NCBI GenBank assembly: GCA_025462735.1
Contig: JAOAPC010000009.1
Coordinates: forward strand, 62,001 to 126,000
DNA length: 64,000 nt
Reading direction: 5' to 3'
From: Acidobacteriaceae bacterium
Lineage (GTDB): Bacteria > Acidobacteriota > Terriglobia > Terriglobales > Acidobacteriaceae
In this document: positions 10,889 to 13,331 of the stretch, one piece after another
How the letters are laid out: the number at the start of each line of letters is the position of its first letter
Numbering within the stretch: position 1 is the stretch's first letter
The notes under the pieces: generated by a model
Databases searched by the model: none
Told to the model about the DNA's origin: nothing
What the model saw: the letters and a program-made list of their open reading frames with translations, nothing else
Translations under genes and position numbers: made by a program

Positions 10889-12064
10889 TTACGATGCTGC
10901 CAGCAGCTGGTTGGTATTTCGATCAGCGCGGAAGCGGAGGATGGCGGCAATGTTGCCAACGCGGTCCAAGGTTTCGTCCCGAGGAAGCAGCACCATCCCG
11001 ATGCTGTTTTTGATCGCAGCAGGCACCAGTGCTTCACACACGTCATTGAGTTGTCGTGTTGCCCGTCCGCAAAGTGGACAATACGGAACCATGTGAGAGT
11101 CCATGTGTCCGCAGGCGGTACACTCGACGGCGCGAGCCGTGTAGTCGGCGGCCATAAGCAGGGTCTCTACCTCGCCCATCTCGGTCGCACGCAAAACCCT
11201 TCTAAGGCCAGTGACGCCAAGGCCATTACTCTTGGCGCCCTCGATGGCCTCGCGAATCAGATTTTCGTGATGCCGCTGCAGCGACTCTTGCAGGATGCGC
11301 TCCGCTTCCTGTTTTGCTTGAGCGTCAGTAAGCGTATTAAAGTCTGCTGAAAAATGTCCGAGAAGCTTTTTCTGAACATACGGATGAAGCTGGCCCTGCA
11401 ACTCAGGCCAGTTCACATCATGGCAGCCGATGACCAGCGCCTCAAACTGTTTCTTCTCTGCCCCGCTCTTCAGGAACTCGGCCACTAGTTGATAGTGCCG
11501 CCGGAAATCATTTTCCTCATGGCGCTCCGAATGGCCGGCATCATATCCAGCGTATCCGTCGCTTCGACCGTGACGTGGAACCGGATTCATAAGTACGCCA
11601 TGCTCACGAAACTGTTCAAATTGAATATCTAGAAAACGTGCCCGTTGGCGGTCGACCAGCGCTACCCACAACCGAGGATATTCTGAGAAAACGGGCACCA
11701 GCGGTTTCAGATGAAAGCGCCGGTTGACATAGAGCTTGGTGGACGCGGCTACCGTGGGCAAATCAAATTCATGCCAAATACCGCTCGTGCTGCACGCGAA
11801 CACGGCTTTTGCCCGCGCTTGGTTGCCGTGCAATCTTTCGGCAAGTTGCAGGATTCGTTCAAGATCGTTCAGGGCTTCCCGGTTACGGCCGTTAAGTTGT
11901 AACTCCTGCATTGTTTTTCGAATCACGTCTTTTGCAACAATGGCTTCTTCGCGATGCGACTTGTCATGCGCGGTCGTTGGTTTGAAGTAAAAACTGATCG
12001 CAAGTTCACCGGGATGCCGGCATTCAAATGAAGCAAGTTTTCGCAGTTCTTCACGAGAAATCAT
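10889..12064 (-). CDS. eRF1/Pelota-fold ribosome-associated protein (baeRF/Balon-like) with zinc ribbon
   Basis: Protein of 391 aa resembling the bacterial archaeo-eukaryotic release-factor-like family, whose characterised member Balon binds the A site of idle ribosomes. Residues about 1-120 form an N-terminal domain. About 128-275 resemble eRF1 domain 2, with RLWVALVDRQRARFLDI opening it. The loop where eRF1 carries GGQ is RSDGYAGYDAGHSERH (167-182) and has no GGQ, so peptide release is unlikely. About 280-391 resemble domain 3 with a four-Cys zinc ribbon (Cys315, 318, 329, 332). It starts 12 bp after an HPF-sigma fusion gene, with RBS CGGAG. That neighbour strongly supports a ribosome dormancy or rescue role. 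Family placement is from pattern recognition only. Confidence 0.75.
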   Translation of the reverse strand: MISREELRKLASFECRHPGELAISFYFKPTTAHDKSHREEAIVAKDVIRKTMQELQLNGRNREALNDLERILQLAERLHGNQARAKAVFACSTSGIWHEFDLPTVAASTKLYVNRRFHLKPLVPVFSEYPRLWVALVDRQRARFLDIQFEQFREHGVLMNPVPRHGRSDGYAGYDAGHSERHEENDFRRHYQLVAEFLKSGAEKKQFEALVIGCHDVNWPELQGQLHPYVQKKLLGHFSADFNTLTDAQAKQEAERILQESLQRHHENLIREAIEGAKSNGLGVTGLRRVLRATEMGEVETLLMAADYTARAVECTACGHMDSHMVPYCPLCGRATRQLNDVCEALVPAAIKNSIGMVLLPRDETLDRVGNIAAILRFRADRNTNQLLAAS

Positions 12065-12076
12065 GAGTACTCCGAA

Positions 12077-13117
12077 CTAATCTGTGCCTGTGTGTTGAAG
12101 TAACTTGTCTTTCAATGGGTTTTCCACGGGAAGGCCGCGGCGCAACGCTTCCCTGGCGTTGTGGACCGACTGTCGAACCTGCTCGGGTGGTCGGTCAACG
12201 ATGGTCGCGATCTCTGTCAGGGAAAACCCTTCGATTGCATACAGAATGAACGCCTCGCGGTCTGGCCTGCTGGCTTTGCGCAAGGCAAACTGTACGAGTG
12301 TGATCATCTCATCGGAATACGCGATCTGCTCGGGGGTTGCTGTCCCTTGGTCCGCAATTCCATTTTCAGCGGTTACAGCTTCATCGGGCTGATAAAACTG
12401 TAGTCGCGCCTCGTCGCTGGCGATGTCACTGGGTCTGCGACTTGAACCTTGAATATCGACTTCTTCCCCAGAATTAGCGCGGCGGCCAAAATCATCCAGC
12501 GACCGGATTGCTAATCGGTAAAGCCACGGCTCCAAGGCTATGCGGTCTGGCATTTCGATGTTCTCGTCCAAAGCAAGCGCAACCGCTTCATCGACTGCTT
12601 CTTCCCAGCTCAGAGAATCCGGTTCGAGATCGCCGGAGTTCTCGCGAAACGAGATCTCCCGCTCGACAAAAAGCCTGAGCCTCCGCAAATTCGCGTTCAC
12701 ATAAGAGCGGACATCGTCTGTCGTTGCGGTCTGAGGTCGGACCGCCGCAAATGTCTCTTCGAACGGGACTGCCGGGGCGGGAATGCCCTCTAAAGCGCGG
12801 CGCCGTCTCCAAGTGTGTGAACTGCGTAAAAGCTCCTTGTGCTTACTGATCTGTTCCAGCAGATCAGCAAAAGCTGCTTTAACGGCCGTAGTTGCTGAAG
12901 AGGAGGCTTGCTGTACCGCCATTTGCCCGGAAGGAAGACGCAAGTTGAGGGACACAACGATCCCTTCGCGTGGAGAGTTCTGTTCCACTGCACCCTTCAA
13001 ATGTATGAGATCCGGACGAAATACCTGCAGCCTTTTCTGGAGTTTGGTTATCCCGTGCTGGATTTCTTTATCTATGTCTGGGGTTCTGGGAGCTTTATAG
13101 GTGATGTGAACATTCAT
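12077..13117 (-). CDS. HPF/RaiA ribosome-hibernation domain fused to ECF-type sigma-70 module
   Basis: Composite protein of 346 aa. Residues 1-105 match the HPF/RaiA (YfiA) fold: an opening NVHITYKAP strand, a helix with KEIQHGITKLQKRL, then the VVSLNLRLPSGQ strands and a second helix ending KHKELLR. A basic patch (WRRRR) follows. Residues about 133-215 look like sigma region 2, including EPWLYRLAIRSLDDFGRR at 196-213. Residues about 268-328 are a clear sigma region 4 helix-turn-helix (DREAFILYAIEGFSLTEIA, then EQVRQSVHNAREALRR). HPF proteins normally end after about 100-110 residues or add the HPF-C dimerisation domain; a sigma module is unusual. First gene of an operon with the eRF1-like gene. 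Start ATG 13117 has an AGAGG RBS. Whether it still binds RNA polymerase is unknown. Confidence 0.8.
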   Translation of the reverse strand: MNVHITYKAPRTPDIDKEIQHGITKLQKRLQVFRPDLIHLKGAVEQNSPREGIVVSLNLRLPSGQMAVQQASSSATTAVKAAFADLLEQISKHKELLRSSHTWRRRRALEGIPAPAVPFEETFAAVRPQTATTDDVRSYVNANLRRLRLFVEREISFRENSGDLEPDSLSWEEAVDEAVALALDENIEMPDRIALEPWLYRLAIRSLDDFGRRANSGEEVDIQGSSRRPSDIASDEARLQFYQPDEAVTAENGIADQGTATPEQIAYSDEMITLVQFALRKASRPDREAFILYAIEGFSLTEIATIVDRPPEQVRQSVHNAREALRRGLPVENPLKDKLLQHTGTD

Positions 13118-13331
13118 GCTTTTGCCTCTGATGCCGGGAGGAGGTCCCGTGAAGCCTTCGCAAGATGGATTCTACACCCGACCACAGACGAATACTCAGG
13201 AAATTGAGAAGCACTGGAAAATATCCAGGAGTCTTATTGCCGCACTCGCTCCCGGTTTATGTCCTTTACCAACCTTCGATTTACCTTTCTGTAAGCAACT
13301 CAGGTCAGCGACTTCGCTGTCTAAAGCGAGA

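Follow-up and report, generated by a model that had tools for sequence, protein, structure and literature searches.

In the 64,000-nucleotide stretch of DNA analysed here (hereafter, the window; Acidobacteriaceae bacterium, assembly GCA_025462735.1, contig JAOAPC010000009.1, positions 62,001 to 126,000), a single gene on the minus strand (12077 to 13117; 346 amino acids, one open frame from its ATG start to the stop) codes for a protein whose N-terminal half has the HPF/RaiA fold of ribosome hibernation factors and whose C-terminal half is homologous to sigma factors of the extracytoplasmic function (ECF) type, embedding region 2, a linker and region 4. The reading that we tentatively favour, on the basis of sequence comparisons, is that this fusion might join a promoter-blind sigma mimic to a hibernation domain and would couple the hibernation of ribosomes to that of RNA polymerase. 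More tentatively still, we predict that it belongs to an unrecognised protein family, with an HPF head for idle ribosomes and an acidic, promoter-blind sigma head for the polymerase, that would couple the shutdown and the restart of translation and transcription and would be carried in mobile heat-resistance islands, as orf11 of the transmissible locus of stress tolerance (tLST).

The original prediction had placed the two domains in one polypeptide, giving no strand; the single 346-residue frame confirms it, and the coding strand is the minus one, the plus-strand reading of 12077 to 13117 containing eight stops. The HPF/RaiA domain covers residues 1-105 (12803 to 13117, minus strand) and is recognized by Pfam, by the predicted structure, and by profile and fold matches. 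Indeed, the Pfam model Ribosomal_S30AE matches residues 12-96 of the window protein (E 2.2e-4; 22.3 bits, the gathering score being 23.7) and, at E ≤ 0.1, 21 of the 23 members (best 1.1e-12) of the family alignment A1, which omits the near copies L019 and L023 and the loci L028 and L034, cut by contig ends. The domain is followed by a sigma region 2-like module (residues 133-215; 12473 to 12721, minus strand), in which region 2.2 is conserved (D176 is invariant in the family alignments A1 and A2) and region 2.4 is degenerate, by the most conserved stretch in terms of mean score (residues 235-258; 12344 to 12415, minus strand; motif FYQPDE), and by a sigma region 4-like module (residues 262-328; 12134 to 12334, minus strand), whose recognition helix (309-320) is poorly conserved and, on family average, acidic.

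As for the two sigma modules that had been claimed, the region 4 one is supported by a significant profile match, Pfam Sigma70_r4_2 (PF08281) covering residues 284-325 over its cut-off (E 3.3e-7) and matching all 23 A1 members at E ≤ 0.1. For region 2, Pfam Sigma70_r2 gave no match in the window protein and matched 3 of the 23 A1 members; however, a profile of 39 family members aligned with 12 ECF sigmas encoded in the source genome throughout regions 2-4 (query 131-337, probability 99.1, E 4e-19). In addition, the NCBIfam model TIGR02937 (sigma70-ECF) covers residues 172-327 over its cut-off (E 1e-12), and, in the family profile A2, positions 1-113 match solved HPFs and positions 159-330 match solved sigmas. 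A structure model of the window protein, built from five sequences (mean predicted local distance difference test score 62, mostly 66-85 in the HPF blocks), contains the elements E-H-E-E-E-H of the HPF fold (residues 2-104) and helices of the sigma type (133-215, 262-328); the helices and strands agree with the boundaries proposed earlier (1-105, 133-215 and 268-328). Residues 1-103 of the model align with RaiA of the Balon/RaiA ribosome (8rd8_D; Z 15.4, 1.7 A) and residues 129-338 with RpoE of the RpoE:NepR complex (5uxx_C; Z 13.5, 4.2 A), further matches of the sigma part being SigW (5wur, Z 11.7) and PhyR:NepR (4qic, Z 11.3). No chain among the PDB matches listed for the model spans both domains, although such a chain may still exist. 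Since the Pfam and NCBIfam matches, the profile-profile alignment and the folds of the model all converge, the domain reading was correct. The C-terminal dimerisation domain of long HPFs has no Pfam match in the window protein, the C-terminal part of which is sigma-like. The genome also encodes a separate S30AE protein (C5; 211-residue frame, 52.1 bits), and thus the fusion is an additional factor.

The fusion is not confined to the window. At E ≤ 1e-8 it was found in 23 of 396 genomes of the phylum, the source genome included (24 matches in total), and 23 of these matches reach into both domains, the exception (L028) ending at a contig edge within a locus that holds the sigma part only; the identity of the A1 members to the window protein goes from 80% down to 22%. 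When 72,556 plasmid records were searched by tblastn, an acidobacterial query retrieved 22 of them; a query from Burkholderia retrieved 298 and one from Shinella 301, of which 273 and 271, respectively, match along 80% or more of the query, and these larger counts include many near copies. The plasmid carriers named, among the matches listed, are Proteobacteria. A contig scan with the window protein, which reaches close relatives only, gave three loci. This distribution is a lower bound, the whole-genome search having covered the phylum of the source genome. Overall, the one-frame fusion is present across families and in two phyla, including complete plasmids; close relatives keep the single frame, the region 4 match is significant, and neither split genes nor a loss of the sigma match was seen. 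An artefact of chance or assembly, or a misreading of two genes as a single one, for which one might invoke the S30AE score of the window protein, slightly below the curated cut-off, is ruled out by this homologue survey, the same single frame recurring in independent genomes of two phyla and in complete plasmids, and the probability that we assign to it is virtually nil. A viral origin was also rejected: one query gave no match in phage records, and a single IMG/VR contig (L096) was retrieved by one of six single-protein queries, the other five giving none.

To compare the sigma half with ordinary sigmas, we used a non-redundant set of 27 of the 39 family sequences (less than 70% identity) and controls from the source genome, where 34 matches to sigma profiles were found (30 with loci); 16 were extracted and 12 of them picked by eye as ECF controls, setting aside L072 (FliA-like), L074, L075 and L078, the last three of which were added back to give a set of 15. 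In a tree of the sigma part, the 27 fusions lie on one side of a branch that separates them from the 12 ECFs (support 100/99); a paralogue of the same genome devoid of the HPF domain stands on the same side as the fusions, its branch being long and its place unsure. This divergent sigma-like protein (L058:962-1756; C4 of the source genome) scores 43.2 bits with TIGR02937 (cut-off 42.9) and 91 bits with the hidden Markov model of the fusion family; a gene in the same orientation precedes its own, and the product of that upstream gene, judged by eye, starts like DnaK.

The analysis of gammaproteobacterial relatives linked the family to a known stress island. In plasmids of E. coli, Enterobacter and Klebsiella, the relative is a “hypothetical protein” encoded between hdeD-GI and trx-GI; this position was observed in L097, L098 and L101, L100 being annotated on the hdeD side only, and in Acinetobacter the relative is the gene after hdeD-GI. 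Pfam S30AE did not match the two gammaproteobacterial proteins scanned out of four; a model of the HPF part made from other members finds all four (E 7e-14 to 7e-13), as does a model of the sigma part (E < 1e-35). Because the relative sits between hdeD-GI and trx-GI, orf11 of the tLST, or locus of heat resistance (LHR), is, judging by its position, the gammaproteobacterial member of the fusion family. The window gene is a relative of orf11 and is not itself within a tLST; compared with the window protein, orf11 is more degenerate and, in the two proteins scanned, has no S30AE match in Pfam alone. Of 5,426 complete E. coli genomes, 152 contain its DNA (AW1.7 is one of these strains), and 144 of them hold at least 80% of the gene; in two E. 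coli plasmid records, ECONIH5 and VG888-46E9, the alignment covers only about half of orf11. In the passages that deal with it, orf11 is termed hypothetical or unassigned (PMC8290217, PMC5383660), and in LHR2 it is reported as disrupted by the insertion of orfC and orfD (PMC5383660). A “sigma 24 like” factor is mentioned in the tLST of Methylobacillus (PMC8290217), and it probably belongs to the fusion family.

Whether the sigma half is a working sigma can be evaluated from the surfaces that it has kept. In sigma factors, the core polymerase is contacted through region 2.2 and the finger of region 3.2, and regions 2.3/2.4 and the region 4.2 recognition helix read the promoter. In the 27 members, the highest mean Jensen-Shannon conservation belongs to the F-x-QPDE stretch, a finger-like linker (0.51), and to region 2.2 (0.49), whereas the recognition helix (0.36) and the distal 2.4 helix (0.32) score as low as the inter-domain linkers and the tail. 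At the level of sequence, then, the parts of the sigma half that face the core are under stronger constraint than those that face the DNA. The C-terminal end of the F-x-QPDE stretch (residues 235-258) aligns with WhiG just before region 4, and in sequence it resembles the region 3.2-4 junction of that sigma. Charges differ as well: the net charge of the sigma-like segment averages -18.3 in the 27 members (-24 to -13) and +0.3 in the 12 ECFs (-4 to +6), two ranges that do not overlap (p 9e-7), and the range of the controls stays the same with 15 of them; the HPF part and the basic tail have a mean net charge of +8.9. In net charge, the recognition helix averages -0.63 in the fusions vs. +2.33 in the 12 ECFs, and region 2.4 averages -0.46 vs. 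+3.25, the values of the window protein being +1 and -1, respectively. The region 2.3 Asn, found in 11 of the 12 ECFs (12 of the 15 controls), occurs in none of the 26 fusions having that helix, L029, which lacks it, being left out of the region 2 counts. Thus, regions 2.3/2.4 and the recognition helix of region 4.2 do not show, family-wide, the basic surfaces by which an ECF sigma is expected to contact promoters.

Several observations weigh against a promoter-blind mimic. The controls all come from one genome, the family members are related to each other, and the charge windows are anchored on the alignment. In the nine Acidobacteriaceae-type members (the family f1 of the source genome plus L032-L034), the window included, the recognition helix is mildly positive (mean +0.67, the least extreme value), and a residual DNA binding is therefore possible in these members. 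Two basic residues are kept in the 2.4 stretch in 10 of 27 members and a basic residue at R+28 or R+30 in 9 of 27, and the NCBIfam sigma call is over cut-off in the window protein, L017, L030 and L089, though not in L093, L097 and L101. The acidity of the module could instead serve its masking by the basic HPF half. Lastly, in MG1655 lacZ::LHR, 7 of 13 genes are reported as needed for heat or chlorine resistance and orf11 is not among them, and deletion of orf11 is reported to have left lipid oxidation unchanged (PMC8407380).

The original prediction had regarded the sigma half as an ECF sigma redirecting the polymerase; in this model, a genuine sigma tethered to ribosomes would be freed by hibernation or by reactivation to switch on stress genes. 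The homology across regions 2-4 and the TIGR02937 call in the window protein agree with it, as do the plasmid annotations, which name relatives sigma-70, FliA or sigma-28, and a conserved promoter-like element that precedes the gene in Acidobacteriaceae-type loci. This element, GGTGTAGAAT (13169 to 13178, minus strand), lies about 50 bp upstream of the fusion start codon and is conserved in close relatives; the form GGTGTAnAAT was found in seven of eight Acidobacteriaceae-type upstream regions, among those listed. However, the genome contains GGTGTAnAAT only five times, a count equal to that of the backwards control and with no regulon-like enrichment, and for this reason we claim no regulon and rejected an autoregulatory or regulon promoter. 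Together with the strong acidity of the module, the degenerate 2.4 and 4.2 helices and the loss of the region 2.3 Asn (the four gammaproteobacterial members lack even the region 2.3 Trp), this makes a promoter-selecting sigma very doubtful. The wider claim of a link between ribosome state and transcription is in agreement with the single polypeptide, the conservation of the fusion and its stress- and ribosome-related neighbours; the part of it that we disfavour is the promoter-selecting ECF sigma, and a switch working by sequestration and release would be no more than conceivable. The same upstream region contains an inverted repeat, CGGGA-CCTCC-TCCCG (13135-13149), 17 bases before the fusion start codon, and a similar one is present in L032 and L033.

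If the promoter-blind mimic that we favour is correct, then, when the cell is stressed by heat, oxidation or starvation, the HPF half would occupy the mRNA/tRNA channel of the 30S subunit, and the sigma-like half would dock on RNA polymerase as a decoy, keeping out the housekeeping sigma and/or the DNA. One protein would hold both machines idle together, because its HPF half would silence ribosomes and its sigma half would bind the polymerase without promoter recognition. In the Acidobacteriaceae, the neighbouring baeRF/Balon-like protein might add protection of the ribosomal A site. The gene of this protein (10889 to 12064, minus strand; 391 amino acids) lies 12 bp downstream of the fusion, and its product matches Pfam baeRF_family10 (E 2.9e-20) and shows a weak NCBIfam likeness to Rv2629-type hibernation factors (57.6 bits vs. 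a cut-off of 320); it has no PDB sequence match at E ≤ 0.01. Of the 37 fusion loci, nine have a baeRF gene adjoining the fusion in the same orientation, eight of the Acidobacteriaceae type and one (L043) of a distant family; in L032 only the start of the gene is within the contig, L055, also of the Acidobacteriaceae type, has no adjoining baeRF, and the contig of L034 stops before that point.

Such a neighbour, of a ribosome-directed kind, would also suit a factor acting on ribosomes only, in which the module of sigma origin now serves as a second domain for contacts with the ribosome or within a dimer (compare the C-terminal domain of long HPF and the CBS module of HibA), with no contact with the polymerase; the degenerate DNA-reading surfaces would fit it equally. 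We hold this to be unlikely, since so acidic a module would hardly bind ribosomal RNA and since its best conserved parts, region 2.2 and the finger, are those that contact the polymerase in sigmas.

The other loci place the fusion among stress genes. In the alphaproteobacteria Shinella, Paracoccus, Agrobacterium and Caulobacter it lies between an AAA ATPase gene and an HdeD gene, and three of the four loci also have genes for Hsp20 and FtsH close by; the adjoining ATPase is annotated as AAA family, and ClpK is the top NCBIfam model for the two that were scanned (about 1,600 bits, under the cut-off of 1,900). In Sphingobium the fusion precedes an HdeD gene, and in Burkholderia/Paraburkholderia plasmids (L093, L102) three Hsp20 genes are followed by the fusion and then by groES-groEL-dnaK. 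These neighbours (baeRF/Balon-like, Hsp20, ClpK-like, GroEL-DnaK, HdeD) fit a role connected with ribosomes and stress. In a group of six acidobacterial loci (L046, L047, L048, L051, L054, L057), where Pfam served to identify one or two proteins per neighbour cluster, an aminotransferase-cluster gene comes after the fusion in all six and a SpoU-methylase-cluster gene in five, and a protein with HD and OB-fold parts is encoded before it in four.

In one distant acidobacterial family, a STAS-domain gene of the anti-sigma-antagonist type adjoins the fusion (L044:7393-7734, identified by Pfam, and L053:7096-7497, by membership of the same BLAST cluster). This arrangement recalls a partner switch of the PhyR type, in which the sigma-like half would be a decoy titrating an anti-sigma or a STAS partner, its availability being set by the binding of HPF to the ribosome. 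Pfam PhyR_sigma-like (PF22233) does match the window protein over its cut-off (E 7.4e-7) and 21 of the 23 A1 members at E ≤ 0.1, PhyR_sigma2 matches L093 below its cut-off (E 6e-4), and RpoE:NepR and PhyR:NepR are both among the structural matches given above. Nevertheless, sigma structures score equal to or above PhyR, the Pfam matches listed for the fusion proteins include no receiver domain (25 of the 26 families in the A1 scan being listed), and the STAS gene stands beside only two fusion genes. Nor was an anti-sigma gene recognised beside the fusion, a weak argument in that the acidobacterial neighbours were mostly clustered, with eight of them scanned by Pfam, the gene tables of the plasmids have gaps, and no search was aimed at NepR. 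On balance, a PhyR-type switch appears quite improbable.

Dormant or stressed bacteria lower both transcription and translation, and the known links between the two are separate factors; a two-headed protein, if the idea is true, would be a direct physical link. The fusion family also gives an identity to orf11 of the tLST/LHR island, which confers heat and chlorine resistance, and the idea can be tested in a K-12 strain, already published, that exists both with orf11 and without it.

Comparison with known systems delimits the novelty of the fusion. In the literature searched, most subscription papers and supplements lying outside its scope, we found no description of an HPF/S30AE-sigma fusion, and in this sense it is undescribed. 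Residues 1-105 share the fold of short and long HPF/RaiA (S30AE) proteins, and long HPF likewise has a C-terminal module after a linker, the fusion's module being sigma-like. In the archaeal HibA, the HPF domain is C-terminal and its partner is a CBS module; the same work surveyed the domains fused to HPF by CD-search (PMC13324472), and the list in its supplement might include an HPF-sigma fusion, “Sigma70” being absent from the main text and “sigma” occurring there only as a supplier name. With group 4 (ECF) sigma-70 factors the fusion shares region 2, linker and region 4 in the same order, homologous by profile; it differs from them in its N-terminal HPF domain, F-x-QPDE linker, strong acidity and degenerate promoter-contact helices. 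The sigma-like domain of PhyR is a sigma-derived module not acting as a sigma; the fusion resembles it in sequence and fold, having no receiver domain among the Pfam matches listed. As regards the Balon/Rv2629-type factors, a baeRF relative scoring far below the NCBIfam cut-offs is encoded next to the fusion; RaiA, alternative sigma-70 factors, Hsp20, DnaK and HdeD are mentioned among the neighbours of Balon (PMC10901736), and those sigma-70 factors may include this gene, annotated as sigma. Compared with E. coli, where CsrA is reported to co-control the hibernation factors RMF and RaiA and Rsd (PMC10746276), the protein would be a fused counterpart of the separate RaiA/RMF and the anti-sigma Rsd.
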